Source of the DNA: Sphaerolaimus hirsutus
Taxonomy: Eukaryota > Nematoda > Chromadorea > Monhysterida > Sphaerolaimidae
Reading direction: 5' to 3'
Length of the DNA: 64,000 nucleotides
Assembly: GCA_964036195.1 (NCBI GenBank)
Contig: OZ038459.1
Location: 18,659,206 to 18,723,205, forward strand
The translations under genes and the position numbers were made by a program. Position 1 is the stretch's first letter, and every line of letters starts with the position of its first letter. Positions 4,331 through 58,600 of this stretch are shown here, in pieces. The notes under the pieces were generated by a model that saw only the letters and a program-made list of their open reading frames with translations, did no database searches and was not told the DNA's origin.

Positions 4331-7300
4331 CCGGCGTGCAAACGGGCTCATGCGGTCGCCACTGCCCAAAGGCGCACCTCACAGTGCCCCCGTGGGGCCT
4401 GGCGTTGAGCCGGGCGCCGCACGTGAAGTTCACCTCGGTGTTGTGCGACACGTTGCCGTTCACCGAGCCCGACACCCAGTAGCCGTACTCGATCGAGGGG
4501 AGCACGCAGTGCTCTGGGGGGGGGGTGGTTGGCAGATAGCAGGCGGCAAGATTGATAACTAGGGGAGGTTGTGTATTTATGTGTGAATGTGGAACTACCC
4601 TGAATCCGGGAATAAGACCCTCTTAAAGAACATCCCCTTGAATAACCCCCATGTTAGCAAAGTGAGGAAAAATACCCCCCTTGATTAACTCCACCCTCTT
4701 GAATAACTACCGTCTGTGATGGTTGGAAAACTAAAAACAATCTATCTAGTCACATAGACCAACAAAAGCTACGTCTGGGGGATGATTCATCGAATGCAAC
4801 GGCAGTGCGTGTGCCAAACAAAAAAAAGCATGTTAGCCTACCGCATTGGCATTCATACGATGAATAAAGTCCATGTTTCATGAAACTTCTGATGAAAAAA
4901 CTCCCCCCCCCCCTCAAAAACTCTGACGAAAAAAAGACTACCTTGGGCTCTTATTCAAGGATTTGCGGTGTATTTACAGGAGACACATAATAAGCATGTT
5001 ATCAGTCTACACATCAACCATCCACCCTCACTCACTGGGCACGCACTGTCCAGCGGGCTTTAGCCACTGGCCCAGACTGCAGTCGATGGCGTTCCTGCCG
5101 CGCACCTGGTAGCCGCGCAGGCAGTACATGCTGGCGCGGCGGCCGTGCGCCACCCGCTCGCCCATCTGCGCGATGTCGGCCCCGTGCACGTAGAACGCGT
5201 GCGGCCGCGTCGGCAGCGAGCACTCCTCTGGGAGGGTGGTGGTGGTTGGATTGGAAAGGGGTCTGGTTCAAGGTTTGTATTTTGGATAAATAATATACAA
5301 TTTATTGCTATAACGAGTTAAGCTACATGCCCACAGTCTTTGAAAATAATTTATAATATAATAATTATAATGAAAATAATAGTATTTGTGCTACTTTGTT
5401 TATTTCAGTTTGTCAACATGAGAAACAGAGCAAATAAATACCGAAACATACATTTAAATATGTGTGTGTAGAGAAAGAGACACAGTAGAGAAAGTGGGGG
5501 GCACCCCACATCCTGTAAAATGTCCTGTAACGTGTCAAATGTCATGTTAAGTGACAAAACTCGAAAGTCGTGTAAAATTGCAAACGAAGTTTGCTATTCC
5601 GCAGTGCATTTTACGTGACTTTTGACATTTGCATACATTTTACATATTACAGGGCTCCAGGTGCCAATCCCGAACCCTGTAAAGTGTAAACTAAAGTGTC
5701 AAATGTCATGCAAATTTGTCAATTGTCATGCAAACTGTCCAAAGTTCAGTAATAAAATATTTTCTGTTTTTGCTTTGACACTACATTCGACACTTGACAG
5801 TTGACAGTGTGCCGGATTGCCCCCGAAACTCGCACGGCGGTAACCAGCAACATGCTCCACATATCAATCTAAACATCCCATAAAAATCCACATATTTACA
5901 AAATACACCCAAACACTCCCAAACCAACTGGGCACGCAAACGGGCACCACGGGCGCCCACTGCCCCCCGTCGCAATTGATGCTGCCGTCCATGCCCGTGG
6001 GCAAGCGGAAGCCGGCCCTGGGGGCAGTCCCAGACCTTGTAAAATGCCCTGCAAAATGTCAAATCTCACGCAAAGTGTCAAAAGTCATGTAAAATGCCCT
6101 GTAAAATGTCAAATGTCATGCAAAATGTGAAAAGTAATGTAAAATGCCCTGAAGAATGTCAAATGTCACGCAGTGTCAAAGTCACATAAAATGCCCTGAA
6201 AATTGGCAAAACTCGGTTGCCATTTTGCAGGACATTTTACATGACTTTGACACTTTGCATGACATTTCACATTTTACAGGGCATTTTACAGGGTCTGGGA
6301 CTGGCACCTGCACAGCACGAGCAGCCGGGCGCCGTCGGGGTACGACATGTCGGATAGGCGCCCGGCGGAGGCGCTTATTACGGCGAACCGTTGTCTGTGG
6401 TTGTCGTAGAGAGGCGGGCAGGCTGTCTGGATTTGGGACGGTTTGGTGATGTTGATATCGATGAATATAAGTATTTCTCTGGGTGGGGATTTGGTAATTT
6501 ACAGAATGCAGTGATACAGGCGGCCTAGGCCTTCTGTGCATGTTTACCCGCTGTGCATGGATACCCGGTGTGCATTTTTATCAACCCGGTGTGCATGGAG
6601 GCCCAGTGTGCATGGCGGCCACCCTCCATGCACACCGGGCCTCCATGCACACCGGGCCTCCGTGCACACCGGGCACCACCATGCGCACCGGGCACCACCA
6701 TGCGCACCGAGCAGACATGCAAACTGTTTACCTGCCATTCTATTTTTTTGCCAATTTTTGAACGAATATTTCACGGGTAAACACGGCGGACTTTATGGAA
6801 GTCATTGTTCTACGGGATTTTTGTACGAGTGTGAAGACTTAAACTTGGCACAAGTCCAAGTTCATTGCGTTTCATGCAAACAAGTTTAGAGACACACAAT
6901 TTATTTTTGCGTCACCGTTAGCGTTCGCGTTCGAATCCAATTAAGCGACTGCAAATAGCCGTTTATGACGACCCACATATTTATATACTAGTTGACACTT
7001 GTGTTGACTTAATCGCATTCCGCGGCCATTATCGGGTGACGCGAACAGAAACTGTGCGTCTTTTATCTTTTTCGTATGAAACGCAACGAATTTGGACGTG
7101 TGCCAAATTCGTATGAACTTTTCGGAGGAATTTGTCTGGGCTGCGACGATAAGATCCGACCTAAGGCCTTACAATCCGACTTTCTATATGATATTTCTTG
7201 ATATATTTTTTGGGGGGGAGGGCGAAATCATGTTATTTTCCCATTTCACGTGCACCGTGTATTTTCACGTGAACTGCGCATGTACGACCAGTAAACCAAA

Positions 7301-10300
7301 CGGTCAAGTGAAAGAAACGGTGATATATTCACCAATTACCATATTTCTTCTAATAGAACGGCATACCTCCAATAGAATGGCACCTACTATAGAACGGCAG
7401 GTTTCGGAACGTTTTTGCACTCACGATAACAATAGAACGGCAGCTACCAATAGAACGGCAGGTACAAATTACGATGGATTAATGCCAAACAAATGAATCG
7501 ATGTTCAAATAAAATAAGCGTGAAAAAATTGGCAAAACAATTGAATGGCAGGTAAAAAGTTGGCATGTCGGCTCGGTGCGCATGGTGGTGCCCAGTGGCA
7601 TGGTGGTGCCCAGTGGCATGGTGGTGCCCGGTGCGCATGGTGGTGCCTGGTGTGCATGGAGGGGCGGCCGCCATGCACACCGGGCCTCCATGCACAGCGG
7701 GTTGATAAAAATGCACACCGGGTATCCATGCACAGCAGGTAAACATGCACAGAGGCACAGACCCGATACAGGCGCTTTTCACATCACTACCCTGTACACA
7801 ACCCATAAATTTTTTGACCAGAAAACAGTCAGCCACCCCCACCCACTTCAACCTTTCCAGCCCCATTTCCCAACAAGGTGCCATCGGCAACCCGCAGCCC
7901 CTTGTGCACCGCCTCAGCAGTCCAGTCAGCCTTACTCGCTTCCCTGAGATAAATGACGTCATTGTCGCCCATTGGATTGGGGTGGCCAGAAAAAAATGTT
8001 GGTTCAAAAGGGGTGACAAACAGGCGCCTGGGAACAGGGTGCCTCCTCGTTCTGTGTCGTCTGTGGCGCCGAACTGCCTTGGCGCCCTTGTCCCTGTCCC
8101 AGATGATGTTTCCTGGAAGTGGTGTATTGTTTCGAAGCTCTCTTTTTCTAGCATAAAATAAAGATCACGATTCACACATCACAATCTTACCTTGAACCAG
8201 GGGGCACTCCCAGTTCCTGTAAAAACCCCTGTAAAATGTCAAATGTCATGCAAAGTGGCAAAAGTCATGGAAAATGCCCTGAAAAATGGCCATTTTTCAG
8301 GGCATTTTCCATGACTTTTGACAGTTTGCATGACATTTGACATTTTACAGGACTTTTTACAGGGTCTGGGAGTGGCACCAGCGGATGCGTCTGGGGCACG
8401 CACGCGGGCGCCACTTTTGGGCGCCACTCGCCGCGGACGCACGTGGCCCTAGGCGGACCTGCGCAGTAGGGCTCGTGTAGGGTTAATTACTTTACTTAAC
8501 TAATTTTACTGTTGAGTGCCGCCGATGCGCGAATACTCGGAAAGTTAGCTAAAACTGCTAAAACTCGGTAAAATTAGCAAAATGTCCCCACACGCACACG
8601 CGAACGCACATGCTTCAAATAACGCCTGCTAAAGCAATGCAAAATAATAGCAATTATACAGGGTGCGGCAATTCAGACCTGCGCTCTAGATTTCGAATAA
8701 CTTGTCACTGGGTGGTCGGATGATTGTCAAATTTTAGGTCGACATTAACAACTAAATAGGAAAGGATCCCTGATAATATGGCTGCGATAGCTCCACTCGT
8801 TCACAAGTTATTCATGCGAACGCGTATTTGTCACTTTTCCACCACCGGGCTTTACGACCAATTACGCAAGCGCCCGCCTTATGGGCATAGCGAATTGGTG
8901 GCGGGCGTACACGCATTTAGGCATGCAGCTGCGAAAAGAAAATCAGAAAAAACCCTGAAAAAAACAATTCGATCCCGATCCCGGTCGCGAGAAGTCAATC
9001 CCGTTTGAACGATATCACAAGGTGGTGGAAAAGTGACAATTACGCGTTTGCATGAATAACTTCTGAACGAGAGGAGATATCGCAGCCATATTTTCAGGCA
9101 TTCTTTCCTATTTAGTTGTTAATGTTAATCTAAAATTTGAAGTCAATTCGACCACCCAGTGACAAGTTATTCGAAATATAGAGCGCAGGTCTAAATTGCC
9201 GCACCCTGTATATAAAACACTGACTGCACACTTTACAATGAAATCCGGCATAATAAGGCCTACTGAATAAAAAGTCGAAAATTTTAGGTTTACTCATCAC
9301 ACTCCATTGCTCTCACTAGGTATCTTGAATTTGATCTACAAGTTTTTGCGTAACATATTCATCAAAATACGGTAAGACCCTGTTGTATAGCGTGCAGACC
9401 GATCAGCGCAGCGTCGAAAACGAAACATTCCCGCGTGCTACCGTATACCTTGCAAATAGAACCCCTCATTGCACTCGTAATAAATCTCCCTGCCGAACTC
9501 AAAATAGTCCAAATAGTGGTCGAAAGTGTACGCGCCTAGCAAACTGGACACTGTCACCCTACCGTTGTGCAGTGGGCCGAAAACGGAATTCGGGTTGGCG
9601 CAGTACTCTAAACGAGCAGGGGGGGCTATTTGAGCGTGTGTAAAAGTGAAACGCACCGTGCAAATAATATCCCCTGCGGCACTGGTAGACAATCTGCCTG
9701 CCTTCGGTGACCGAGCGGATGTAACTTTCGTACAAGTAGCTTCCCAATCCGCTTTTGCCCTCGATCATGATGCGGCCGTGCGCAAAGCGCCCGCTGAACA
9801 CCGCGTCCAGGGGGTGCGAGCAAATGTCTGCTAGCCGTGTGTTGGGGTGGGCTGGCGCCGGGGGTTTGGGCGCCATTTTTTGGCGCCAGGCACTGGCGCA
9901 AAATCATTGTGAGAGGCAAGATTTATTTCGAAATATTGACGTTCGAAATCTGTTTTGACACCTCTGGCAGCGTCATGGAGTATTAGAGCGCAACGCCATT
10001 TTTTGCTATTGCGTCACTAACCTGATAGCCCAAATTTACAAATAATATTGCAATTTAGATGCCTCATGCTATGCACATCGATAATCGTTTTGAAAGTTGC
10101 AAACAACTAACCATATATCTGGGTTTTGCCAAACCATATCGTTTTTACTCACCGAATAACTCAACTAGTAATCATCCACGAAATAAATAAATACTGGAAA
10201 ATAAAAAAAGCAAACAGCAAATCCAGAATACAAACGCACTGGGTATGCACTTTGGCGGTTCGCCGAGCCACTTTCCATATGAACAGCGCACTGTGGGGTC

Positions 10301-13300
10301 GCCGAGCAGCTCGAAGCCGATGTGGCACTGGTAGCGCGCCTGGGGGCACTCACAGACACTGTAAAATGCCTGTAAAATGTCAACTGTCCTGTAAAGTGTC
10401 AAAATTCATGTAAAATGCCCTGCAAGATTGTTAACCATTTTACAGGGCATTTTACATTTAACATTGAGCAGGGTATTTGACATTTGACATTCGACAGGGT
10501 ATTTTACAGGGTCCGGGAGTGCCACCTGGGCGTTGTGTTCTGACTTGACGAAAATTACCCGCCCGTGTGCTACCGGCGTTGGCCATTCGTGACATCGTAC
10601 TGCGGGGAATGAGGTTTTGAGCAGTTTAGAAAATTTGTTTTTCTTACGGTGTTGAAGGTTTTTTTTAACGGGAAAAACACGAAACGTGGACATTATGTTC
10701 ACCGTATATCCTCGAATAAGCCCCCCTTTGAAAACTACCCATATTGGCCACGTGAGAGAAAAATGACTCCAATTTTACTGAACATTCTGATGCAAAATAA
10801 CTACTTCCCTTGAAAAACTCCCCAGTCAAAAAATTCTGACGAAAAACAACAACAGCGCACTCAACATAGCGTTATTCAACCTATCAACACTCTGAGAACC
10901 CTGGCACCCAAGAAAAAACCACTACACACCGCCCTAGGTACAAAACACAACCACCCCACAAACCCGGCACGCAAGAGGGCAAGTTCGACCAAGTGCCATT
11001 GTTGCACAGCGGGTTGTTGTCGTACTGGCGCTCGTGGTTGTCGTCGCACTCGATCTGTATGAGCTCGCCGTGCGGCACGCTGCTGCCCGCCGGCCGCCGC
11101 TTCACGTGCCCGTTCGCCACCGAGGGGAGGGAACAGGACGCTGGGGGGGGGGGTGATAAAGAAGACATTGTTAAGTTGGAACGGTGAAAAATGTGGTTTC
11201 CTGGTAGCTCAGTGGGTTGGAGCGTACACACGCATAGTGAAAGGTCCCGGGTTCGAGTCCCAGGGCAGGGCGAAAACATTTTTGTACCTTTTCTCGAATT
11301 TTTGTTTGACCGCTAGAAAAAAACACTTCACAAATGGATTCTTTATTGTTTGCATTATTTTTTGTTGAAAATGCGCATAAAATGCGGGAAGGAACACAAT
11401 ACGAAACATCGATTTCACATGGATTTAGTCATAGCGGAACGAAAGTGCAAGTGTGTCTGCCTGCGGTAAGAGCTTGGAAGGCCACACAACATAAAAATGT
11501 ATTCAAAATCCAGCAGAAAAATAGAAAAATGCGAAAAAAATTGTGAAACAATTTCTAAATTTGAAAAATTCGAAAATTCAAAAACTTTTTCTGAAAAAAT
11601 CGTGAAATTCGACAAGTCATTTAATAAAAAAACACTTCTATGTATTCCATAGGTTTACCACCATCACACGTAAACCTGTCCCTGCCCCATCCCCTCAAGC
11701 AATGGTCTACCCTCAACCAACCCCCAACCCCCAACCCCCAACCCTCACCCAGACACTGCGGCAGTGGATGTGACCAGTGCCCATCCGACTGGCAGGTAGC
11801 GTAGGCGGGCCCCACGTGCGTCATCCCATCCAGACAGCGGAATATCACCGCCGACTTGTACTTGAGCTCGTGGCCCTCGATGTAGCCGTTCCACAGGGGT
11901 GACAGGGCCGTGCAGCGGATCTCTGTGGGGGGAAGGGGTTTCGGGTTGGCGTTTTGAGACCAATTTTTATTACTTTGTGATAGACAGATGGTATGAGAAG
12001 CGCGCAAAACAATACATAACAATATATGTATAAAACGAATAAAGTTATTAGCACACTGCCCGTTTCCAATGTGGTTCATGTTGGCAGCTACACGCACCAT
12101 TTCAGATACCTTATATCCTCGAACAAGACCCCAGGGAGTTATTTTTCGTCAGAGTTTTTCAGGGGTGGGCTATTCAAGGGAGGGAGTTATACCTTATTTA
12201 TCGTCAGAGTTTTTGAGTGGGGGTTATTCAATTGGTGGACGTTATTTAAGGGAGTCTTATTCGAGATAAGACACAAGATAAGATTCGAGATAAGATTTGA
12301 TACACGCTATATATTTACAACAAAATAACTTGGGCTGTCCGAAAAATAGGTCGGTCAAATCAAACTGCCAAAAACAACAACCCCAAAATCAACAAACCAA
12401 TGCACTGCGGCGGCATGCCGCTCCAGGTACTATCATGCTGGCACACGCGCTGCACCTGGCCGACGAGTCTGTACCCATCGTCGCAGGCGTACTCCACCCT
12501 GGACTGGTACTCGAGCGACGTGCCCAGCACCGTGCCGTGGGTTGGGGACGCTGGCCGCTCGCAGCTGATCGCTGAGAAGGTGAAGAGAGTGTGTTAGAGT
12601 CTTTTAAAGACCTATCGATTTGGCGGCCCACACAGTAGTTGACACATGTGTGTCAAGTGCTTTGTGTCAAGTGGTTTGTGTCAACTGGTCTGTGTCAATA
12701 CAGATTACATCTTCACACGTCGCAGAGCGATCTACCAATGCACGTGCCATAATTTTTATTTTACAAGATTGCTGCGTGTGCATTTTGGGATCGCGCTGCG
12801 ACACGTGAAGCCGAAATCTGAGTTGACACAGATCAGTTGACTCACATCTGTGTCAACTACTGTGGCTTTATTGCATGTTGGCCTCAAAAATAACATTTGG
12901 GGTCAGCCAGTTCCAACACAGGTATTCCTTGGTTGCCGACGTTTAAACATGCTACATTTACACAACCCCTTCCCCAACCGCAACCCCCAACCCACGGAGG
13001 CACTGGGGCGCGGTGTCGCCGCTCCACCGGCCGTTGGGCATGCACTTGCGCACGCTGGGCCCGTGCAGCTCGAAGCCGGCCACGCAGTAGTACTTGACGA
13101 TGTGCGGGTAGTTGTAGTTGTCGCCCTCCTTGAACCCGTTCAGCAGGGAGCCCGGCTCGCCGCAACTTCGCGCTGAGGGGTGGATGGGTTTTGGAGTTCG
13201 GGTGGATTGAATGTGAAGGGTTTTTCACTTCTGATAGACTTACCTAAATCATGTATTGTTGTTCCCGCGTTACATAAATATTATACAGGCTTTATCTTAT

Positions 13301-16300
13301 GAAACAATTGTAAATATGTTGTTCTATGATTAATATCTCATTTAGTATCATTTCTAAAAAATAAATGAAATGACAATCACTTGCATTTATTGGAGTTCAG
13401 TTTCAAAGATATACCTAAATGTAAATACATATAACAAAGGCTTTTCCAGAGATTCGTTTTCATCAGAATCATTAACGGTTATCTCGGTCGAAAAAGATTG
13501 GTGAAAATATACAGTATTTACTCGAATACCCCGAGAAATTATTTTTTTCGTCAGACTTTTTGAGGGGGACTATTCGGGGGATAACTTTCCAAGGGGGATT
13601 ATTGTTTCATGAAAATTTTCAAGCATGTTTCTATCAACTGAGTTCGTGGATGACATTTTTGTTCTGATTATACACAAAAAAATTTATCACAATATGTTCA
13701 AGGGGGGGGATTATTTTCCCTACTCATCTAACATTGGATTATTCAAGTGGGGAACTATTCACGAGGGGGAAAATTATTCGAGTAAATACGGTAGGTTTCC
13801 GACATTGCCAGACATTAAATTTATTTTTTTTGTATTTTTTAAATAAAATCCCATAAAAACCACCAAAATTCTGAACCCTAATCACAAACCAGTTGTAACC
13901 AAATCCCCTCCCTGCGAACTTACGCGAGCACTTCAAATTGGGTCCGTACCACCTGGTAGTCTGGTTGTAATGCAAACACTTCGCCTTGGGCAGGCCGCGC
14001 TGAGGGCACTCCCAGACCCTGTAAAAAGCCCTGTAAATGTAAAATGTCATGCAAAGTGTCAAAAGTCATGGAAAATGCCCTGCAAAATGGCAAACGTACG
14101 TTTGCCATTTTGCAGGGCATTTTCCATGACTTTTGACACTTTGCATGACATTTGACATTTGACAGGGCAGCTTACAGGGTCCACAAGTGGCACCTGGTCG
14201 AATCTGTAATAGCCGGCGATGCACTCGTAGTCGACGATGGTGCCCACGGGGAACTCGTAGCGCCCGGCGCCCGTGTGCGTCGCGAATGGAACTGTTGGTG
14301 CCGCGCCGCACTTGCCTGCGTTAGGTACTTGTTGTCGACAGCGCAAAGTATGCATAAAAAAAGTACTTATGTCTTGGTGCCAATCCGAAACCCTGTAAAA
14401 TGTAAAATGTCATGCAAAGTATCAAAAGTCATGGAAAATGCCCTGCAAAACGGCAACTCGGTCGCCATTTTGCAGGGCATTTTCCATTGCCTTTTGACAC
14501 TTTGCATGACATTTGACATTTTACAGGGCTTTTTACAGGGTCTGGGAGTGCCCCTTGGTCGATAATGCGTGAGCAGGATACTTATGCACGCACTTTCACG
14601 AAAAATATTGCAAAAAGAAGAAGGCAGAGAATGTGTTTTTATGAAACAATTTTTGTTTTATAAACGGTGACGTCATGATGGAGTGTTTCCTTCAGAAAAA
14701 AGCATAGCGTACGATCCGAGGAGTATAAAAACAGTCTGTATTTTCAGCAATTGGGTTGATGGTGTTGAACCCGTTGTAGGAGGTTATTTTCTCCCTAAAC
14801 AAACCCCTGTCATTGATGACTATCATGGTTCTAGCAGGGATAATCAGCCGTAAGGGGTATGGGCCTATCGACACTTTATTCCTTTTTCCTCAAAACGATT
14901 CTGACACCGCTTCTGAGCAGGAGTCTTGACATAGAATTTTTTACATCACCACTAAATGGGCACTTTGCCAATTTGGTGTGTGGATACAAACTTACTCTGC
15001 CAATAGTCCAAGTGTCGATTAGCATCGCTTTGAGTTTGTTGATCGGCTGCCAGCGACACAACAACACAAATCACTAAGATGAATGCGTGCCGTAGTGAGC
15101 ACATTTTTCGGTTACTACGGGAGTTTTAACAGGTAAATATTTTCTAGCGGCACCGACGACACAAAAAACACACATAAAAATTAGGTTGCCTAAATCATTT
15201 TAGTAGAGTGGGATAAGGTAAAGCATATTTTTTCCAGTTCAGAACAGATAAAACGTGATGGCATCAAGTCGCCGCCCACAAGACATCTAAAATCTGTACG
15301 ATATATGGTGCACACGTTGTGTGTGCACTGGGCACATAAATAGGCTCAAGCATATAACAAAGTGCACCGAGGCATGCGCTAATACACATTGCGGCAGATT
15401 CATCAAGAAAAGGGATTACTGTGTGATTAGGCCGACCTATAGCAAGGCGCCACTGTTAAATGGCACGGAAATGGCAGAAAAATGCGCTATTGTCGCTGGA
15501 CACACTAGTTAACCAATTTGGCATTTTGAGAATTTAGTAAACTGATAAATGTGCTTTGAGGTTACTGGGATGGGTTGTTTTTATTCTCATTCAATTGTAG
15601 TTGACGAACACCTAAATACAAATGAGGCGTCCAATTCTAAAAGTCGACAAGTCCAAAATATGAAAATTTTGAGTTAGGCCCGGAAACGTCATCTGGGGCT
15701 ACTCCCGCACATTTTTCATAATTTTTAAATAATTTTTTAACCTCATATGCCCATATGGCAAAGTGCCAAATTTGTTATTTCTGGGAAAAATGCAAAAAAA
15801 TTGGGCAAGAAGTCGACAAATCCACTTAGTTTTGGGCTAAAAGTCGACCTTCCGCAGCCTTTTTTATGGGAAAAAAGCGCAAGAAATGTGATAAGTCCAT
15901 CATGGACACCGATTTCTAAAAGTCGACAAGTCCGTAAATTTCCCATAAGGCAGGCGCAACGCGGGCGGGAAGAAAAATGTTGTCGCGTGCAAGAAGGCGA
16001 CAAGTCTATTTCCCTCCTCAAAACAGTTTTGTTCTGTCCGAGTAGAATTTTATAGACACCCAATTTTTCACATATACGTTGAGAGCAGGGGCTGAAAATT
16101 TGAAACTTTATTGTTAACATTTGGAACTTAATGTTGAGCATGAGGGAGCCCCATTGGACACGCACCACGGACCTGGAATTGGAAATGAAACTTAAGATGC
16201 GATTTACTCAAAATCGCATTTTGTGGACTTGTCGACTTTTAGAATTAGACGCCTCAAATGAATTCGTCAGTGATGGCCCAACGTGGTCACAATTGACATG

Positions 16301-19300
16301 ATAAATACTTTGGCAAGTGACGCATGCCAGACACTTAGAAATTTATGATTATCTGTGATGTAAAAAGTTTCAAATTCTCTGTCATAAATATGATAGGTAG
16401 TTGAAGTTAAGGATGAACAGCGAGCAGGTTTCCGGTAATTTTAAATGTTTCATAAATTTGTTCCTCGACAGAGCACTTAACAGGGTGCAAAAGCCTTACC
16501 AATGGTGTAGGCTCGCTAGGCACGTAAACCCGCTTGGCGTGTAGGCCCGGCGGGCACGTATTTCTACTCGCCAGGCACGCAGACCCGGCAGGCACGTAGC
16601 AGGGCGTTTACAGTTTACGATAATACAAGTTTACAGGAATGAAGTGTCTCCCAACTACGCTTGACAGACAGGGAAATCACACAGTCTGGTAAACTCAAAT
16701 GTGTTCAAAATGGATTTATGATTTAGGGAAATTTCGGTTGTCAACTAGTGGGGAAATTGGGATTAAAATGAATATGGTTTGCCGCAGTGAGCTGCTGGTG
16801 TGAGCAATTAACGTATCATTGCGCAGCAGTTCGCGGTGCACGTGAGTGGGCATGTGGACCCGGTAAGAATGTAGGCTGCCCGCTTGGCACGTACGCTCTG
16901 CTACATGCCTGCCGGGTCTACGTGCCCGCCGGGTCTACATGCCAAGCGGGTTTACGTACCAAGCGGCACAGGGTCCTACCAATTCGCTCGTTCCAAGAAC
17001 CATATTGCGATAATTTATGTGTGTTCGCAAAATTTATCACCCTAGTTTTAATCAACCGACCAAAGAAAAGAAAAGAAAATGAATCAACGCATTAATAAAG
17101 ATTGCATAGTGGTCCGAATGCGGCACGCGATATGAAATGATATTGAGAACTTGATAACGGCAAAAGCTTCAGCAGCCCTTGTTATGGTTCATTGTCTATA
17201 GAAAATTTATATCAGTTCAAAATGATAAAATCCGGTCTGGCAACTCAGTGCATATCGCAACTTGAGTGCGCTCATAACTAGCCAATAACAACTTTTAAAA
17301 AATTCTTATCTTACAATCTATAGACCAACTCAAGGTTGCAAGATTTTCAGGTTGTGCAGTAATAATTATTCCAGTCGGAGAGTGTTGGTCATATAGATAT
17401 AACTACTCAGCGGACGCATGCTAAGCATTTTCTGAATGAAACACTCGATCATGACGTCATCATTAATAAAACGAATTGTCGAACTAAATAATTTCAGGCA
17501 CGAAACATATCTCGGTTGTACTCGACTCCGCCTTTCTTATGCAAAAATATTTTTCTTATTCTGAAAACGCGTCCATAAGTATCCTGCTCACGCTTTATCA
17601 ACTAAGACATAAGTATTTTTGAGCGCATTCTTATTGGCGGTTCGCCAAGTATATGTATAATGTAAAGTACCTAAGCTGACTGCCCAAGGGTGCATACTTG
17701 AAGAAGGTATCATCACAGCCGTGAATGATGCATGTTATTGAAAAGAGACTAGCCACATCTACAGCAAAGCAGCGGGCAGCGCACTCGTTGGAAGACAACA
17801 ACAGAATGTACAATAAGTCGTTTGGGCGGAAATAAAATGTATTATACCTACCTAGTTAGTGGTACTCATTTTCAATAGTTAAGCGACCGTTAAAGGAGTC
17901 AGGAAAGTATTTACACACCTAAATATCATAGAGGTAGACCTCCAATAACGCCACACACGCTGTATGTCAACTGAATTCGTGTCAACTAAATTTTAGTGAA
18001 TTATGTGATTTCAACTTTTCTATCTGATAGAGCATAATCAATTTTACACCGTGACACTTGATTTCAATTGTTTTTGTTAAGTGTGAATGCTTTGATTTTT
18101 TTGTTATTTAGTTGACACGAATTTTCAATGTCAACTAGCGTGTGTGGGCCCAATCAACCAGAAAACCCACCCCCCCCCCCCAACCCCCTCATATTTACCC
18201 CCCCCCACCCACGATCAGTAGTGCACTGTGGCTGGTCGCCGCTCCAAGCGCCATCGCCGTCGCACCTGCGCACGGGCGGGCCGGCCAGGGTGTAGCCCTC
18301 GTCGCAGCCGTACTCGGCCGCTGTTCCCAGATGGGCCGTGGGGGGTTGCAGGACACGACCGTGGAGGGGCGAGATTAGGGGCCGGCATTGGATGGCTGGG
18401 GGGGGGGTGGTTGGGGGGTGATGAAGTGTGAAGTCTATTGAGTGGGTTGTGATTGGTCAGTTACTAGGTATGTGGATATAACATAGGCCAGAGTTTACGG
18501 TAAATTTTGATGCGGTGTGTAGCTAGATAGTAGCCCCCTTTGAAGGGATAAGCAGACTTACCATATTTGCTTGAACAGGTCCCCCCCTTTAATAATTCCC
18601 CCTGTCAGAGGAGTGATGAAATAATAATTCCGCTCTTAAGAGATTTGATCAATTCGTTCTGCCCAATTTTAACAAAAATGGCACGTTATTATGTTAAGAA
18701 AGTATATTTCGTGAAATGAGTTGACAGAAATATGCTTGATAATTTTACGAAATAATGATACCCCCTTTGAATTATTCCCACTCGAATAAATAGTTCCCTC
18801 TCAAAAATGTCCGACGAAATTATAATTCCCCAGGGGGATTATTCAAGCAACACAAAACCAAACCCAAACACCACCAGGGGTCTCGAATGGGGGGGGTTGG
18901 GGGGGGGTTACCCCCCCCCAAACCGCCCAGCTATCTATCTATCCCGGAGGCAGCTCAGCTATCTATCTATCCCGGAGGCAAAATTTTGGGTTACTACCCC
19001 CTAAACCCCCCCCCAAATCGCTCAGCTATCTACCTATCTGGAACGATTTTTCAGAAACTATACCCCAATTTTCGCTCAAAATCGCTATTTTTCATACCTA
19101 TATATAGATTTCCACCTTCAAAATCACTGGTTCATGCGTCTAACTGCCTATTTTCAGCTATTTTAAGTACTATATGCTCTTGTATACCCATTTTGAGCTT
19201 TTTTACACCTACTTTTAGCGATTTTTCTCCCTTTTCTTCCTTCTATGCCCCGAAAAAGCCTATATATCGAACCACCACAACCCCCCCCCAAACCCCCCCC

Positions 19301-20186: not shown

Positions 20187-20362
20187 GTGCCAATCCCAGA
20201 CCCTGTAAAATGCCCTGGAAAATGTCAAATGTCATGCAAAGTGTCAAAAGTCACGTAAAATGCCCTGCAAAATGGCAACCGAGTTGCCATTTTGCAGGGC
20301 ATTTTACGTGACTTTTGACACTTTGCATGACATTTTACATTTTACAGGGTGTGGGACTGCCC
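20187..20362. mobile_element. Introner-family MITE upstream of the CCP gene
   Basis: GTGCCAATCCCAGACCCTG to GGGTGTGGGACTGCCC, flanked by CCG. The stem is almost perfect (GCAAAATGGCAACCGAGTTGCCATTTTGC at the centre, split here as two arms). It lies outside coding sequence. Confidence 0.8.
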
Positions 20363-20705
20363 CCGGGGTATTCAAGCTCAGGGTATTCAATGCATGAACG
20401 CAAGCGCGAATGTCATTAGGGTAGCATTGATCAAACCTGACCCGACAAAATGAATGTTCCCTCGCTCCATTATGTGCATTTTTCACGCGTTGCATGGATT
20501 GTGCGGAAATTGAGGTTAGCACCCTGTTGTTTCTACAAGAATTATTTAGAATTTGAAAAACAAGAAAGGCTGTCAGTTTTAATGATAAAAATAGAGTCGA
20601 AACGAAAGTTATACTAAATGTTATCGTCATTTTGCTCATCGCTGACGAAATGTCTTTTCATGTCTTCACGCCGGAATGCAACCTTAAATATAACGCGAAG
20701 GATAG

Positions 20706-39337: not shown

Positions 39338-42300
39338 TCACTCAGCCCCCTGCTGCTTGACTCTGAGCACGGCGGGGGCGGAGCTTGGCGGCAACAGCCT
39401 CAACTCGGTCACAAGCGCGCTCACCAAATCCACAGGGAGCAATTCCCGCCTCTGAGTGCACAGGCGGTCGACTGAGGGTGCAGTGGGCTGCCTGCCGCCG
39501 CGGCCGCTGGTGGCGCCCGTGGGCTGCAGCGTGCCGTCGGAGGTGGCCCGTGTCCATACCTGGTTGAGGGGGTTGGGTTTGGGGCAGGGGTATCTTGAAT
39601 TTTCACCCTCCGAGTGGTTGGATAGATAGCAAATCGCTCCTCTGGAGGGATAGATAGCTGAAAAATTTTCGGGGGGGGGGTTGGGGGGGAGGGGTTGTGG
39701 TGGTTCGATATATTCATATCGATATGTTCGGCATAGAAGGAAGAAAAGGGAGAAAAATCGCTAAAAGTATGTGTAAAATGGCTCAAAATAGGTATACAAG
39801 AGCATATAGAACTAAATATAGCTGAAAATAGGCTAATAGGAACCAGAAATACGATTTTGGAAGTGAAAATCTATAAAAGGGTATGAAAAATAGCGATTTT
39901 GAGCGAAAAATGGGGTATAGTTTCGCAAAAATCGCTCCAGATAAGTAGATAGCTGGGCGATTTGGGGGGGGGGGGTTTAGGGGGTAGTAGCCCAAAATTT
40001 TGCCTCCGGGATAGATAGATAGGTGAGCGGCCACCGGGATAGAAAGATAGCTGGGCGGTTTGGGGGGGGGGGTAACCCCCCCCCCATTCGAGACCCCTGG
40101 TTTGGGGGTCTATTGGAGGAATGTGAATGTTGAGAGCATGTTGAAAATCGTGAGATTTTTAAACTGGATCGAATTATCGACAGTAAAATATCGGATATAT
40201 ATTGGATATATTGGAGTTATATTGGATTCGTTGTTTTGGAAGTTTTACGCTGGCAGACTCAGTGTGCTTCTTGGTCAATTCCGAAGTGGGGAAGTAAAAA
40301 ATACTACAATTCAATGTTTCAAGTAAAATGAGAAGTGAGAAATGAAATAATAAGTAAAAAATTAAAAGCTTAATGGAATGGGAAGTAAAAACTAGGTTAA
40401 TTTAGAAGTGAAAAGTTAAAATAATTCGTTTAAAATTCGTTTTCATTTTATTACTTATTTCCTGTTTTACATCACTTTTAACATTTTACTTCTCATTTCA
40501 CTTCTACTTCAAAATTTACTACATTCTTAAATTTTTACTTCCAAAATGTTTCTTATCTATTCCTCCACTCACACAATCGACACCTAATCACCCTCTCAAC
40601 TCAAAATTATCAAATTACAACCTCAAACCTAAGCCCCGCCCACCTTCTCCGAGAACTTATAAGTCGGGCAGGCCAGTAAAACAGGAACATTATGCGCGCG
40701 GGCGACCAGGGCCACCTGAGTGCTGCCCAAACGCACCAGCGCGTGTCCGTTCGCAGCTACTGAATCGCAGCCTAGTAGGACTATGTCTGTCTGAAATGGG
40801 TTACTCGAGGGTTTGAGTTGAGATGATTGGTGGATCTTGATTAGTGAATAATGAGGTGTTTATGAAGATACTTTAGGGTTGAAAAAATATCTCTAAATAA
40901 AAGTTACTGAATTACGTTTTTCGAAAGAATACATCGCGCCTGTGCTAGGGTTCAAACGGGATGCCGTTCCCATATCAATTCCGTAAATTTTGCAGTCCCG
41001 ATCCTGAAACCCCAATCCCGCGTACTCAAAATACCAATCCCGATCCAGTTACCTCAATCCCGATCCCGAAAAGTCAATCCCGTGTGAACCCAAGCGCGTG
41101 CGTAAATAATTTATTAATGGGTTAATAAGAAGGAAAACGAACATCTCTGACAGTATAGGCGAGTGAAGAGAGCAGAGAATAAGTCACCGGTACACCGGCT
41201 TCCACTAGTCGCGACAAAAGTCTCCTGCCTGCGCAAATTTTACAATAGTAAATGCGGTAAATATGTAAGTAGATGATCAATGCGTGCGTAAATTAAAGCG
41301 TGCTAAATCGACAACGGTCCACTGATGTATACCGAATGGGCGCATAATCCTACCATAATTTAATGAATTCAAATTATGTGATAAATTTCGTAATCAATCA
41401 TTCCATCATAAAAACGAAATATCGTAAAAACTGTATTATTATTGGTTCATTATTCATATGGGTTATGGTAGGTTTCATGCAAAGTGTGACGTCCGCTGAG
41501 TATAAAAACCGCACCAGGTCTATCAGGCTCAAAATCTACCACCGCCACACTGAAAGCGCCACCGCGGCCGGACGCATCCAACTTCTGTTGATGCGCGTGC
41601 GCGTCGAGCAACATGCGCTGCACGATGGGGCACCAGGCGTAGGTGAGCACGCGCTGGCCGCACAGCTTCGACAGGCCGTACTGCGACATCGCGTCCATGC
41701 ACAGCGACAGGCGCTCGTGCTTGAAATTCGCTAGTAGGTCCAGCAGGGAGGAACGCACCTGAGAGTTGCAGGTAGGGTTTGGGCAGCGACGTAGCCAGTA
41801 TTTTTGAGCGGGGGGGGGGCGGATTGTATACGCGGCCCGGCGAGCGGGCGGGTCGGCGCTACCCGTAAAAATGTGCCCCTGTAGTAAGTGAATTGCGCCA
41901 TGGCGCTGGCGCCATTCATAGGCGCGACGCCATGGCGCCACGAGCGTTGGAATTGGTGCCAAAACTGCTGTATGTCTGTATTTTACAAGCATATACAGCG
42001 ACATATACCGGAATTTAGGTTTTTCACTGGCTTTGTGACTGCGGAGACTATTCAGCCGAAAATTATGTTTTGTGAATTTTGACGGCAAAATGCGCGGCGC
42101 GGCCGCAACGATGGTCCAAAATTGGTTCAGCCAATACCCACACAATCCAACCTGTTCATCAGTCAGATGCCTCTGTTCAGCATGGGCATGCACCTTCCCC
42201 TTGAGCAGTTTTACAAGCGTGCCGCATCCAGCGGGCAGTGCGTTCCCGCCGGTCAAATAAGTGATTTGCGGCCGCAGCGCAGCGTCCACATCGCGACACA

Positions 42301-47800: not shown

Positions 47801-48322
47801 GCCGGAATTAGAGCTCAGCGTCGATTTGACGTGAAATGACGTCGTGAAATTAATTACACGAGTGTGGATCATGCTACGGGTCTACAATTTTCTAAGGATA
47901 ATATATGAATCAATACCTTAATCGTGTCCAATACTGAGTGTTATCAGCCACAACTAGAGCAAATTGAAAAATTCAATTTTTATCATTTCACGTCATCATC
48001 ATTTCACGTCACAGTGTCAGGGAACAACTTGACATTTCACGTCAGACTATTGCAAGCAGCAGTCTGACGTGAAATGTCAAGTTGTTCCCTGACACTGTGA
48101 CGTGAAATGATGATGACCTGAAATGATAAAAATTGAATTTTTCAATTCGCTCTAGTTGTGGCTGATAACACTCAGTATTGGACACGATTAAGGTATTGAT
48201 TCATATATTATCCTTAGAAAATTGTAGACCCGTAGCATGATCCACACTCGTGTAATTAATTTCACGACGACATTTCACGTCATCATTTCACGTCGAATCG
48301 ACGCTGAGCTCTAATTCCCGCT
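47801..48322. mobile_element. Near-perfect 520-bp palindrome (fold-back element)
   Basis: The arms of about 250 bp meet at about 48058 (ATTGCAAGCAGCAGT spacer). The outer ends are GGAATTAGAGCTCAGCGTCGA and its complement. TGACGTGAAATGATGA words occur on both arms. Only a handful of differences separate the arms (for example GACGTGAAATGATGATGACCTG against its complement), so it is young or maintained. Confidence 0.85.
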
Positions 48323-51142: not shown

Positions 51143-51325
51143 GTGCCAGTCGCAGACCCTGTAAAATGGCCTGTAAAATGTCAAATGTCATGCAAAGTGT
51201 CAAAAGTCATGTCAAAAGTCACGTAACGTACGTTTGCCATTTTACCGGGCATTTTACATGACTTTAGACACTTTGCATGACATTTTACATTTTACAGGGC
51301 ATTTTACAGGCTCTGAAACTGCCCC
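51143..51325. mobile_element. Introner-family MITE upstream of the K2P exons
   Basis: GTGCCAGTCGCAGACCCTG to GGCTCTGAAACTGCCCC, flanked by CAG (51140-51142, 51326-51328). The flanking sequence (ACATTACAGCGCACCAG / GCTCTAATATAG) is not recognisably coding. Confidence 0.75.
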
Positions 51326-51526
51326 CAGGCTCTAATATAGTAACAATACCAACAGTCTACTAAAACACAAAAACACATCAATGGCGGCATGACAGAAGGG
51401 CCGCGCGCGGCAAACATTGGGCAGTTGCGGGCCGGCAGATAAATAGATGCGAGACAAGTAGTGCCGTGCAGTGGCGCAAGCCGCATGGCAAGGGCTAGTA
51501 GAAGGCGTGCACCAGGCGGGTGTTTA

Positions 51527-51845
51527 TGTACCGTGTTTGCTTGAATAATTCCCCCCCCCTTGAATAATTCCCAGTGTTGAATAATTCCTTCTGTGAGATG
51601 AGTGAGGAAACCCCCCCTCCCCTTGAATCATTCCCACCTGAAGGTTAATGATCAATTTGTTTATGTTAAATTTGAACAAAAATGGCATGTTATTGTGTTA
51701 ATGAAGCTTAGGTATTTAGTGGAATGAGTAAATAAAAAACACGCTTGAAAATTTGGAAACAATAATAATCCCCCAATGAATAATCCCCCCTCAAAAAAGT
51801 GACGAAAAATAATGCCCCAGGGGAATTATTCAAGCGAATACGGTA
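51527..51845. mobile_element. CCGTATTT-family MITE
   Basis: TACCGTGTTTGCTTGAATAA to TTATTCAAGCGAATACGGTA, with C-rich and G-rich arms. Confidence 0.75.
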
Positions 51846-52609: not shown

Positions 52610-55600
52610 GCACGCACCGTTTTCGCACAGTGGGCGGAGTCGTGGGATCAGAAAGTTCCCGCAGTCGTTTGTCGCACATCGTCTGCGTCAACTGTGTGCT
52701 GGTGCCAGTCCCAGACCATGTAAAATGCCTTGTAAAATGTCAAATGTCATGCAAAGTGTCAAAAGTCATGTAAAATGCCGTTCAAAATGACAACTCGGTT
52801 GCCATTTTGCAGGGCATTTTACACGACTTTAGACACTTTGCATGACATTTGACATTTTACAGGGCAGTTTACAGGGTCTGGGACTGCCCCTGGTCGGCTT
52901 CATACTGCTCTACTTGTTGATCGGAGCGACCGTGTTCCACTCGATCGAGAGCAAGCCGTATTATGACAGGCAGATTGAGTTGCATAATCAGACTAGATCC
53001 TGCTTGAGGAACGTTTTGAGAAAGGTGCGAATAGATGGCAGTTTTTTTGGGAAAAAATTGGGTGTCAACGTGTTTTGAGAGGTGCCACTAACAACGATGG
53101 CAAACAGACATTCGAAAATGTTTTCGAATTTTCGATTGTTTTCTGACTTACCTATATCTAGTTTTTAGAACCACTATCAAAGTCGAACTCGAAAAATTCG
53201 AAAATTAGGAAATTCGAAAAGTGTTTTAAATTTTTTCCCAAAAAATTCGAAAATTCATTTTTAGAAAAATACTACAAACTTTAAACACTTTTTTTCAGGG
53301 GGTTTGGCATGGTTAAGCTGGAATTACAGCTCAACGTAATAGACATACCGTATTTCCTCGAATTACCCCTCCCGCTCGAAATACCGCCCGCCCTTAAAAT
53401 ACCCCCCTCAAAATGGGCACTATGAATTTATAAACCCCCCCTCGAAATACCCCCTCCCCCAAATTCAGTGTATAGGGAACGTAGATGACAAAAGCTCTGG
53501 GAAACTGAATAACCTCAATTTGCAGAAAAGCTATGGCCCAGAGGCGGACGAGCGGGCCGTGGAAAGAATGTTCCAACGGTGTCTACAGGACAAAAAGCCG
53601 AGACAACGCTGGGCCCCAGCCACTAGCGTTGTGTTCGCTTTCAGCGCTGTCACTACTCTGGGTGAGTCTGTAGCGGGTTTTTTTAAAGAAAAAATGAAAT
53701 ATAATGACTGATAGTGTTGATTTGGGATATTCGCGAACTAAATATTCCTAAGGAGTTATTCTAAATCAAATGACCCACAGTTAGAGACTGATTTTGGACG
53801 CACGCACACACTGTATGTCTCCAGAAAAAGCCTGCCAGTCTCGCGGGACCGCAAAATATGCGCACAAAATTACTTATGTCTTAGTCGACAACGCGCGAGT
53901 ATGTACTTACTTTCACATGTCGACAGTCAAAATCTCTCACGAAAAAAACTTAAAAGAAAAAGGCAGACACGATACTCTACAAACAGATACGAGTTATGTT
54001 TTGGCTGGCAGACGGCCAGCCGAGAACTTATGGAAGGCGTGATGAGGACGAAGTGATGACGTCATGAAGACGACGTGATGGCGAGAGATGATGACGGTGA
54101 CGAAAGTGATCACGTCATGATGGAGTGTTTCCTCCGGAAAAATGTACGGCGTAATGTCATTGGAGTATACATGCAGCGATGCAGTCCGCGGAGCATATTT
54201 ACCTCAAACCATTTCATTACCCCCCCCCCCCAAGGCTACGGCTACGTGACGCTAGTAACAGACTTCGGCCAGGTGTTCTACATCTGCTACGGCATCATCG
54301 GCATACCCATCATGTTGCTGGCGATCGCCAACATCGGCCAGTTCATCCGCGAGGCCATACTCCTGATTCAGGCAAAGTGCAAACGATGGCTCAGGCTTTG
54401 CAGGAGGAGGTTCAGGTGCCAGTCCCGGACCCTGCAAAAGACTGTGTAAAATGTCATGCGTCATGTAAAAGACCCTTGAACGTGCCATGTGTATCCAAAT
54501 CTTATTCAGAAGTTTCCATATCTTAGGTTTTTGTATCCAAATCATAAGTGTGGACATAAGATTTGGATACAAAACATAAAATTTGGATATGATACAATGA
54601 GATTTGGATACACATGATACTTTATATGGTTGTTACATGACACATAACATTTTACAGAGTCTTTTACAGGGTCTGGGACTGCCCCCAGGAGGTGGCTGCC
54701 GCTGGCGCAAAGTGCATTGAGTAGGATGATTAGCAGGGTCACGCGGAGTGCGTTCGGGGGGGGGGGTGTTTTAGGGGGTTGTAAATGTGGGACTGAGATT
54801 TGGTGAAGTGAATTGATCGCGGAAATTACTGGTGTCGTAGATCGGGTGATCCATCAACGGCAGAAAAACATGAGGAGTTATGTCGTCGGTCCGGCATTGA
54901 TTCCAGTGGTCTTTAAATGATTTTTCCCCGAAAATGTGCTTTCTAATTAAGTTTCATCAATTGATAACATATAAGATATATAATTAGGGCTGTCAGTAGT
55001 AACGGCCGTGAACCTACAAAAATCGTAAATAAAAGCCCCAACCCCAGGCCACGCACCCACAGCTGACACAGAATCAATATCTGTAGGCCACCACAACCCA
55101 CACACGGGCGATGACACAATGAGCGATTTCAGCCGGCCTTCAACTGTCCACAAAACTGATCTGGCCGATTCGGAGGACAGGTTAGTTTGTAGCGACGGAG
55201 GCCTAGTAAACATCTAAACCCATCACACATCTGAACCCGCCACTCATCTAATTATACCCATCACACATATAGGATAAATATAATAGCTTATTATTTGACA
55301 CGCCCGCTCCACCTAGGCGTGTCAAATTATACAGCTAATAAATAAAAATATAATAGCTCCCTATGCCGGTACACATCTAAACCCATTACACATCTAGACA
55401 GAGTCTGCGGATAAGCAGCGATTATCTACATGTTGGGTTTATTAACGCTATCACTCATTCAACATAGCCTATTATTCAGTGGCACTTGCAGCATGCATTG
55501 TTTCCATCCTCAGTGCACCTGAATTTGGTTGGATGATAGTGATATTAGTGGACAGGCCCGCGGTAAACAGAAAGTCATACAGGTGTACGCCTTTGTGTTT

Positions 55601-58600
55601 TCCGCCCACTGCGGAGCGAGCATGTCAAATAATCCGCTTATATCTTTATCCTAGATGTGTGATGGGTAGAATGAGATGGGTGGTGGGTTTAGATGTGTAG
55701 TGGGCTTAGATGTGTACATAGTCAGAAGGCCTCAGTCAGTAAATGCGAAGTAATCCAACTTCACAATTACTTTTCAAAAGGTTCCGTACATTTGACAACT
55801 CTAGTGTCTGAAAACCTGGTATTTTCCAATTCAGGACCAGCGAAGCTTCCAGCGACGCGGCGCTTAAGGAAATGGGCGGAGTCACGTTCATCGCGGTGTT
55901 TCTGGCCTACGTGTTTTTCGGCGGCGTGCTCAACGTGCTCGTGATGGGCGCGAGCGGCAACTACCTGTCCGGCGTCTACATCAGCTTTTTGTCGCTGACT
56001 ACGGACATTGGGAGTGCGGTTTCTGAACAGAAGTGAGTGAAGCGCTATTTTCACAGTTACGGTGTGTATTCTGTAGGGTCTTTCACCCCCGTCGAAAGTT
56101 GTCATACCGTGTTTCCGCGAATAAAACCACAGCGGAGTAATCTTTTCGCCGAGTTTTTGATGTAGGGTTCAAGGAGAGGGAAGTTATTTTTCCTCAGAAT
56201 TACACTATGGAATCTGCTGGTCTGTCTGACTTGCATGATCATTTTTAACACTTTTGCAACATCTATTCCGCCAATCACAGACGTGGAGTTTTTCAGGTGG
56301 GGGAGTTATTCGAGGGGTGGTTTTTCCTCACCCAGCTATCAGGGGGGGCTTATTCAAGGGGGTCTTATTCGAGGATATACGTATAAATCTCACCTCGAAC
56401 AGACGCTCGGGCAATCTTCACAATTAGACTGACTGTGGGACTGACCTCCTAATTATCATCAATCTAACTATTACCGCAAAATCCCCCCCAAAACCCCGCT
56501 CGCCCAGAATCTACACGGTGCCCGTCGCGTTGACCTACGTCGTCATCGGCGTGGCCCTGTGCACGATCGCCGTGGAAATCGCCGCCGTGCACTTGCGCCG
56601 ACTTCATTGGGTCGGCCGGCCGGCTGGCAAGCACAGGGCAGGCTTGCTAAGGGTCTGGGTGGGCGGCAGGCGCACCAATATAGCTGATGTGCTTAGTGCC
56701 GCTTGCGCTCAGGTGGCACTGTCGGACACTGGGGAATGACATGTAAAATGTGAAATGTCAAGTGAAGTGTGAAAAGTTAGGTGAAATGCCCTGGGAAATG
56801 GCAAATCGTGTTTTCCGTGTTCCATGGCTTTTTCCACGACTTTTGGCACTTTGCATGACATTTTACATTTTTCAGTGCATTTTACAGGGTCTGGGAGTGC
56901 CCCAAGATGGGCATACCCATGGAGTCGGTGAACAATTTGGATTTGGAAGATTTGATGAATTGCGCCCTAGATATTAGTAGTGGCAAGCCGGTGCGTCTTT
57001 TTCAGGTTTTTTTTTACAGTTCACAAAGTTGATTTTAAACTGATTTTAAAATTCAGGTGGAAGTGCGCATGCTAGATGAGGAAACACCGCTACAGTATGT
57101 TACCAGATTTTTTTGCTTTGCAGTTGAAGGAAATACGTTCATCTTTTTATGTAAATATTTTCTTTCGAGTGCACATTCCATAAGTGATTTCTTATCCCAT
57201 TTAAATCTCATCAATATGTACTTTAGGATATTACACAATTAGTATGTCACCAATACGCTGCGTTTGTTCATTGATATGAAGTTGTAAAACATATTTATGT
57301 TGTCTTCGCATTGACTGCAGAATGTATCCGGATACGGTCCTATAATTCCGTATAAATACTTTCCTATTCATCTACCAAAAGAGCTGTTTGGTAGTTCGAT
57401 GACTTTTGACTTTGGCATCGTGCCATTAGTAATCAACTACTCTTTCACAGCCAGCCAGCAACCTGCGGCTGGGGGGCACTCTCACATGCACTGCAAAAAT
57501 AGCATGTAACATGTCATGTAAAGTCACGTAAAATGTCAAATTTGTGATTCAAATTTGCAAAATTGATTTAAAAAATTACTGCTGAGAGTGGCACCGTTTG
57601 GAACACCTATACCGCTATTGTAGCATCTAGAAGCCAAAAGTGTGGCGCGCAGCCAACCGCCCGAACTGCACCCAAATTTAACCACCACCGCAGGCCGGGC
57701 GCGTTCACGCACGACGCGGCCACGCGCTCCATCGACGACGTGGACACCGAGCACGAGCTCGGCGAGCAGGACCGCAACGCGAACAAGTCGGACAAGTTGG
57801 CCCACTGCCAAGTCGCCGATCTGCGCATCAGAATGGCGCCGCCGGCCACGCTGCGCACCTACAGCAGGCAGCTGGACTTCCACGGGCCGTACGGATTGGA
57901 AAAGAAAGAACTGATGAGAGTGACGAAGTTCCCCAGGGCCGTGGTGCACAAGATGTCCGTGATGGACACCCCCGTGAAGGGCGAATGTGTGCCGATGAGA
58001 CACGGTAAATTGGCACTCAGCCAAGGCGTGGGGTTGATAGCGCGTATTTCGCGCAAGATTTCCTTTAGGGCCGACGGAAGTGATCTGTAAGTATTGCGAC
58101 ATTATGCTTGCCACATTAAATTTACGTGTGCGCGTGCCATTGCGCACTGCATCCTGTTCCGATGACACTCTGAAATGCATGAGATTCACAATCGACACGT
58201 TCGCACAGCTTTGCTTATGCCAGCCCCCCTGCACATTTGCTTAACCTCGCCACCAGTCACTGTAACTACGTCATCTTGCCACTAGTGATGGAATGGCGCC
58301 ATGGCGCTGGCGCCATTTGAGGGCGCTGAAGGGCGCCATTGACATCTGGCGCCCTTTTCCTGTGGCGCCAATAGCGCTTGGCGCCCTGATGGCGCCCATA
58401 ACGCCCTTTCTATGGCGCTTTTCCATCACTACTTACCACCCAATTGCACGACCCATCCGCTTGAAGCAGTCACACCCGCTAAAACTCATTCCCAAAATGC
58501 ACCAAACTCCAGCCACGCCGCGGCGCCTCATGAGTTCGCACATTCCGCCGCCGAAAACGAAACTGTACAGCATGAAAATCGGCAGCGGCACGAGCACGCC

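Follow-up and report, generated by a model that had tools for sequence, protein, structure and literature searches.

Introduction

The origin of new introns is a long-standing question, and it is raised directly by a stretch of 64,000 nucleotides from the nematode Sphaerolaimus hirsutus (GenBank assembly GCA_964036195.1, contig OZ038459.1, forward-strand positions 18,659,206 to 18,723,205; hereafter the window), in which twelve short hairpin elements appear to interrupt coding exons. An earlier note on this DNA took the elements for introners, that is, DNA elements acting as introns, and held that removing each of them, together with one copy of a 3-bp flanking duplication, would join the exons at GT-AG boundaries. 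Here we ask whether a transposon family is making introns in this animal, and by what rule they would be removed. We conclude that a family of non-autonomous DNA transposons, of the kind known as miniature inverted-repeat transposable elements (MITEs), very probably generates spliceosomal introns in this nematode, splicing being read here from the DNA, and the animal seems to gain introns on a large scale. The proposal is well supported at the DNA level by the polarity of the elements, a CWG target duplication that can supply an AG, exact restoration of coding sequence, exon-rich insertion sites and thousands of identical ends; its fixed GT-AG rule does not hold for about a third of exonic copies. 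With identical ends by the thousand, a target that carries an acceptor and an element end that carries a donor, every step of the process is testable.

An element family with two different ends

All twelve elements are present within 3 bp of the positions first given for them, and a sequence check and repeat search found ends common to them all. Their bodies are near end-to-end inverted repeats, as had been proposed, and the two full-length elements that were folded, each with its duplications, form strong hairpins: none of 200 shuffled sequences folded as well as the copy at 52702 (z about -18) or the copy at 6018 (z about -14). The genome-wide count that the earlier note had suggested, made with one terminal repeat over 348 Mb in 762 contigs of one assembly, returned 2,899 exact matches, as compared with none for the same pattern read backwards, our control for chance. 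The two ends of the element differ, one beginning GTGCCA and the other GGGGCA (TGCCCC on the opposite strand), and a GTG end is partnered by a GGG end in 26 of 46 paired ends. Terminal inverted repeats, short length, absence of coding capacity and a target duplication mark the family as MITEs, and it shares with introners the presence of many similar copies in coding exons, with similarity extending up to both predicted splice boundaries.

Insertion takes place at CWG, whose three bases are duplicated. Among the exact ends, 1291 follow CAG and 1106 follow CTG, together 2397 of 2899 (83%), and of 107 ends recovered by fuzzy matching over the window and the collected loci, 81 adjoin CTG (46) or CAG (35). 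The 46 paired ends comprise 13 CTG..CTG, 7 CAG..CAG, 6 CTG..CAG and 2 CAG..CTG, the remainder being other combinations, so that matching CWG stands on both sides in 20; four of the six CTG..CAG pairs come from copies of a single transposon, and the set includes some composites and overlapping loci. Within the window, the 3-bp duplications claimed for every copy are exact in nine of the twelve, the exceptions being 28800 (CTG and CAG), 52702 (CTG, the right end having lost one base) and 56713 (CAG and AAG). The surroundings of the insertions were assessed in 40 loci, half of them for each 5' motif, drawn from consecutive matches on contig C1; 38 of the 40 could be parsed. Flanking GC content averages at least 0.5 in 25 of these, a level reached by 32% of the CWG sites of the masked window (p 2e-5), and in 22 of 35 when three near-duplicate loci are removed (p 2e-4); with GC as a proxy for exons and a background from one window, these figures suggest an exon-rich distribution.

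Conceptual excision restores conserved coding sequence

Conceptual removal of the element with one CWG copy restores conserved predicted proteins exactly. Known domains cross the junction in five of ten peptides tested, which accords with the earlier claim that host domains become continuous on excision as far as the CCP (Sushi) and HTH domains are concerned; a K2P helix had been named as well, and that piece alone is unmatched. In all twelve copies the empty site is spanned by an open frame of 45 codons or more, which is weak evidence because the DNA is GC-rich.

Three copies on the minus strand lie in Sushi exons, and in each the Sushi match runs across the junction (sequences are given in the gene strand, with a slash at each element boundary): 6021-6307, CAG/GTGCCAGTCCC...GGGACTGCCCC/CAG, with CTG at 6018-6020 and 6308-6310 of the plus strand (1.3e-6); 10343-10525, CAG/GTGGCACTCCC...TGCCCC/CAG (2.5e-8); and 14003-14193, CAG/GTGCCACTT...TGCCCT/CAG (7.8e-6). 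A further minus-strand copy, at 8201-8378 (CTG/GTGCCACTCCC...GAGTGCCCC/CTG, lacking AG), is placed by reading in a CCP-like exon, ten bases, duplication counted, ahead of a GTAAG at the exon end; this exon gave no Pfam match, and the gene strand here, as at 56713, is taken from reading of the frame.

Two other minus-strand copies lie within HTH domains, and HTH_23 is matched across both junctions: 30599-30789, which has GTG at both ends (CAG/GTGACATT...TGGCAC/CAG; 1.4e-7), and 37954-38333 (CTG/GTGCCACTCCC...TGCCCC/CTG, lacking AG; 3e-12). Empty-site comparison is afforded by open frames at 26394-26726 and 34504-34848, both on the minus strand, each of which contains an uninterrupted HTH paralog of these exons. 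At 28803-28991 (minus strand, CTG/GTGCCAATCTC...TGCCCC/CAG) the element stands in an open frame past an HTH-like stretch, where HTH_32 is matched with E 3e-5, under the curated cut-off. The copy at 27637-27886 (minus strand, CAG/GTGCCACTCCC...TGCTTC/CAG) interrupts a cysteine-rich exon (..CxxC..GWPSCVDCFYN) that has uninterrupted paralogs in the window and no Pfam match. More generally, the minus strand between 23040 and 41000 carries a local gene family in which HTH exons and cysteine-rich exons (CxxC...GWPSCVDCFYN) recur in several copies, some of them interrupted by elements; that the two kinds of exon belong to one gene is our guess.

On the plus strand, the element at 54416-54685 (CAG/GTGCCAGTCCC...TGCCCC/CAG) lies in a K2P exon just after Ion_trans_2, which adjoins the junction. 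The copy at 52702-52890 (CTG/GTGCCAGTCCC...TGCCCC/TGG, one base lost) stands at the start of what reads as a putative first K2P membrane helix, and the boundaries first assigned to it, 52702-52889, leave one extra codon. The copy at 56713-56903 (plus strand by reading, CAG/GTGGCACTG...TGCCCC/AAG) lies downstream of the K2P exon, within an open frame. The K2P label comes from a query joined from three exons, which matches K2P and TOK channels, the best match being KCNK3 (E 2e-8) and covering the middle exon; the pieces at 52702 and 56713, searched singly against Pfam and for homologs, gave no relevant match. The twelfth copy, 19591-19950, is unstranded, with a plus-strand CAG duplication, and its surroundings are GC-rich, both strands having open frames.

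Two loci outside the window extend these results. In a minus-strand OSCP1 gene (locus L054), a CAG copy interrupts EQRLR/AQN and a CTG copy interrupts KLYDL/MTMA. Both junctions fall in or beside invariant columns of an alignment of ten proteins (this one and nine others) that is free of gaps there; the CTG copy sits between invariant L89 and M90, and the Oscp1 profile is matched across its junction at 4e-18. Among named species the best match to this protein is from Plectus sambesii (63%) and the next from a bivalve (52%). Srx is a nematode receptor family, and two paralogs with a Pfam Srx match, about 17 kb apart, carry the same CTG insertion. They differ at 2 of 327 exon positions, 30 of 987 in the upstream kilobase, 95 of 1011 downstream, and 12 of 171 in the element, which also has a 28-base gap; the contrast of exon with upstream divergence gives p 0.012 from this one pair. 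The simplest reading is that the Srx exons have been under selection since the CTG insertion, gene conversion being the alternative.

The element is polar with respect to the gene

In coding exons the element lies mostly with its GTG end 5' in the gene strand, which we call orientation A, the reverse being B. All seven asymmetric copies of the window whose gene strand is backed by a domain or a paralog (6018, 10340, 14000, 27634, 28800, 37954 and 54416) are A (p 0.016), as are 8201, 52702 and 56713 on weaker grounds, namely slight K2P support at 52702 and frame reading at the others; 30599 is symmetric. A wider sample was assessed with a codon-usage classifier built on 15 exons, all in orientation A, which recovered 13 of the 15 when each was left out in turn and was applied with 14. 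Scoring of 87 parsed elements, less five duplicates, left 82, of which 34 passed, three of them symmetric. Of the 31 asymmetric rows, 27 are A and 4 are B; with locus L046 left out for want of a GT end, the A rows number 26 (p 6e-5). When the 12 training rows are removed, 15 of 19 are A (p 0.02), or 14 of 18 without L046 as well (p 0.03). All three symmetric copies that passed stand on coding-strand CAG.

In orientation A, a GT donor would come from the element itself and the acceptor AG from the duplicated CAG. Insertion at a gene-strand CAG would thus yield CAG/GTGCCA..TGCCCC/CAG, in which the donor is the GT of the first bases of the element and the acceptor the AG of the second target copy (TGCCCCCAG/). 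Each CAG insertion would therefore be spliced without change to the mRNA.

Insertions at CTG

About a third of exonic copies do not obey the rule of removing the element and one duplication at GT-AG: they stand on gene-strand CTG and lack an AG where the acceptor is predicted. In the window, the predicted acceptor is AG in eight of the twelve copies and TG in three (8201, 37954 and 52702), and would be TG at 19591 if orientation there follows the other copies. A normal acceptor, TGCCCCCAG, stands at the end of gene-strand CAG copies, and TGCCCCCTG at that of CTG copies, so that splice sites drawn from the GT start and a duplicated CAG are present in the former and missing from the latter. The earlier note had held that its proposal would fail if exact junctions were missing where predicted, and on that test the CTG copies need another explanation. 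They are common in exons and have the same polarity, since the 27 A rows of the codon table consist of 16 CAG..CAG, 8 CTG..CTG, 1 CTG..TGG (52702) and 2 CTG..CAG.

The acceptor side is nevertheless biased. Among exact ends on the GGGG side, 1515 adjoin CAG and 967 CTG (of 2482 with either; p 3e-28), and the bias to CAG is stronger here than on the GTG, or donor, side (p 4e-7); these counts take in ends anywhere in the genome, exonic or otherwise, and a ten-copy array on contig C4 adds to CTG. Copies with 5' CTG and 3' CAG outnumber the reverse 3 to 1 among the 38 parsed C1 copies, and 6 to 1 when L041, 28800 and L071 are added (p 0.125), which is suggestive only.

Either TG acceptors are tolerated in this animal or the CTG alleles are impaired. 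On the first view, which we put forward tentatively, the spliceosome would accept CTG as well as CAG, giving exact introns at both orientations of CWG and hundreds or more GT-TG introns, with later T-to-A changes on the 3' side producing canonical acceptors. With less assurance than for the CAG copies, we suppose that CTG copies could be excised at the equivalent junction (..TGCCCCCTG/), and that a TTTACAG lying 19 bases upstream of it would assist, as would the hairpin, by drawing the two ends together. Early recognition might fall on the inner AG, with the outer TG or AG serving for the second step, possibly aided by the hairpin. The CTG copies amount to a natural experiment on the need for a 3' AG, having the same element and the same hairpin with one acceptor base changed.

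Weighing the alternatives

Several observations weigh against the view that this family generates introns, or against parts of it. Four of the 31 exonic copies are in orientation B (L064, L071, L086 and L091), as is L097, which fell below the threshold; the classifier was trained on A exons alone, its thresholds were chosen with the scores already known, and the codon test is neutral at 28800 and 56713. One copy in a C2H2 zinc-finger gene (L046:9301-9491) has GG instead of the GT donor, the frame being continuous on exact excision. Most copies carry a TTTACAG-like AG 19 bases upstream of the proposed acceptor, which should compete with it. When CTG copies were scanned for in-frame GT-AG pairs (12 entries, less two without a frame anchor, so that ten were scanned, two of them the Srx paralogs), L054 and L078 had no in-frame, stop-free pair within the scanned ranges. 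Finally, an autonomous partner, expected to have a DDE transposase, a Myb/SANT protein and the same terminal inverted repeats, was not found among the 150 of 306 PF13359 candidates that were scored.

The best-surviving alternative is that only the CAG copies are introns, the exonic CTG copies being young, harmful and possibly heterozygous insertions that break genes and persist only through high activity of the family. We regard this as a serious possibility, a little short of an even chance. CTG copies may be impaired alleles because they have no junction AG and, at L054 and L078, no in-frame, stop-free GT-AG pair within the scanned ranges; TG is not normally a sole acceptor, and every TG 3' site found in human U2 introns was an alternative to an AG lying within 28 nucleotides (PMC2374985). 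The bias to CAG on the acceptor side points the same way, and some exonic CTG copies, such as that at L054, have perfect ends and could be recent. A broken gene, however, would not need polarity, and exonic CTG..CTG or CTG..TGG copies number 9 in orientation A and 1 in B. Moreover, the Srx paralogs that share a CTG copy have kept their exons better than their flanks, and excision of the 37954 copy leaves the HTH domain intact.

It is unlikely that CTG copies are instead spliced to a nearby cryptic AG, either GGGAG/TG (+9 nucleotides) or TTTACAG/ (+19 nucleotides), with residues added to the protein. The GGGAG site does give an in-frame +9 in 37954 and L080, the base lost from 52702 puts TTTACAG in frame at +18 (counted on the sequence), and some in-frame pair exists in L092, L005 and L093 too; the Srx copies have one odd in-frame pair at +51 nucleotides. 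The extra residues would, however, land in the HTH domain and between invariant OSCP1 residues, and L054 and L078 offer no such option within the scanned ranges. Counts over the leading 100 rows of two lists (25 against 39) made a GGGAG acceptor look plausible, and the full counts run the opposite way: the GGGAG end variant is found next to CTG in 357 of 967 ends and next to CAG in 632 of 1515. Since it is not more frequent at CTG, this speaks against cryptic GGGAG as a general rescue.

Programmed elimination from somatic DNA, as in ciliates, in place of RNA splicing would explain precise removal at CAG and CTG alike, and the hairpin and duplication are transposon-like; it is most improbable all the same, as it needs no 5' GTG polarity, yet such polarity is seen in every supported window copy and in the great majority of the wider rows. 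That these are ordinary MITE insertions in pseudogenes or misread non-coding DNA, as the open frames on both strands at 19591 and several GC-rich copies might suggest, is scarcely credible in view of the domain matches across junctions, the OSCP1 alignment and the orientation bias.

Other copies and features of the window and genome

About eight further family copies were found by repeat search in the window, outside recognised exons. They include, all unstranded, 14377-14554 (duplication TTG), 20187-20363 (flanks CCG and CGG), 1033-1242 (duplication TTT), 51143-51326 in AT-rich DNA (5' CAG), and two diverged adjacent copies at 5497-5823. On contig C4, ten places between 881307 and 982525 (L120-L129), 7-15 kb apart, have a near-identical truncated element followed by the same downstream DNA, with upstream DNA of two kinds. 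We considered this array as a gene family bearing a CTG copy and dropped the idea, as it resembles repeated non-coding segments; it slightly inflates the genome-wide CTG count.

A Harbinger-type transposon bearing PF13359 (L039-L042) has more than 5 kb in common among four copies that are about 99% identical, and it hosts a member of the family within an open frame (L041:2224-2415, CTG/GTGGCAAT..ATTGCCCC/CAG; likewise in L039, L040 and L042). As candidates for the autonomous partner, two abundant PF13359 families were rejected for having ends in ..GGGGCC with other flanks, and a candidate from the PF13359 search at L043 for having no matching ends.

Other repeats in the window are an inverted repeat of 227 bp at 47827-48282, with arms 98% complementary and a 2-bp loop; inverted repeat copies at 18899-19400 and 39573-40082, 90-93% alike and about 20 kb apart; and a G-run unit (GGGGGGGGTATTTCGA) that forms arrays at several places, 2251-3554 and 33066-33403. 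Contig C762 (L056, L057) is mitochondrial, 14,754 bp long, and by frame reading has nad2 and nad1 on one strand and cox1, atp6, cox3, cob, cox2, nad3, nad5, nad6, nad4L and nad4 on the other. Among the 120 matches listed for its COX1, the best named ones are insects, at about 66%. A search for SL1 returned nothing, and neither did its control; the OSCP1 and Srx matches are the ones that indicate a nematode.

Comparison with known systems

A literature search of open papers, from which many journals are missing, found, among the papers listed, no introner family in a nematode by title or start of abstract, and the available text of PMC9169325, on nematode introns, names no such element family. 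DNA-transposon introners with splice sites supplied by the target are already known, animals included: introners of algae and other protists have also been reported from only two animal groups (PMC9860276). Like the present elements, those are non-autonomous DNA transposons in exons, many with terminal inverted repeats and a target duplication; some families draw one splice site from the element and the other from the duplicated target, and most leave mRNA length unchanged. The present family differs in its host, a nematode, in its 3-bp CWG target, which already contains AG in one orientation, and in the large share of copies that stand at the wrong target orientation (CTG) and yet in good exons. 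An acceptor-carrying CWG target, polarity of asymmetric ends and many CTG copies in good exons were not found described in the text consulted.

By target site, the family appears closest to the NuwaI group of the PHIS superfamily, found in animals, which makes 5'-CWG-3' duplications and has terminal inverted repeats usually starting GGG (PMC4482050). The CWG duplication agrees with this; of the two ends here, one starts GGG (GGGGCA) and the other GTG (GTGCCA), and the likeness is limited to target site and end bases because no transposase linked to these ends was found.

The introner elements of Amoebophrya (PMC7789003) are also hairpin repeats that span introns, with direct repeats of 3-5 bp and many non-canonical junctions; no family-specific inverted repeat was found there and boundaries vary widely, in contrast to the fixed ends and mostly GT donor seen here. 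Among animals, larvacean tunicates have many introns that are not GT-AG, and introner transposons with weak splice sites have been named as a possible source (PMC13326754); the non-canonical introns of Fritillaria are described in a paper cited by other papers. In the present family the donor is GT and it is the acceptor that departs, in some copies, the comparison being one of splice sites and not of shared sequence. In the copepod Eurytemora a noticeable fraction of introns likewise has unusual splice sites, with GA or GG as donor (PMC5714493), but it is the donors that depart there and acceptors differ little, and the text of that paper has no word beginning 'transpos'. Human TG acceptors (PMC2374985) resemble the CTG copies in geometry, a TG standing 19 bases past TTTACAG being an arrangement of the same kind.

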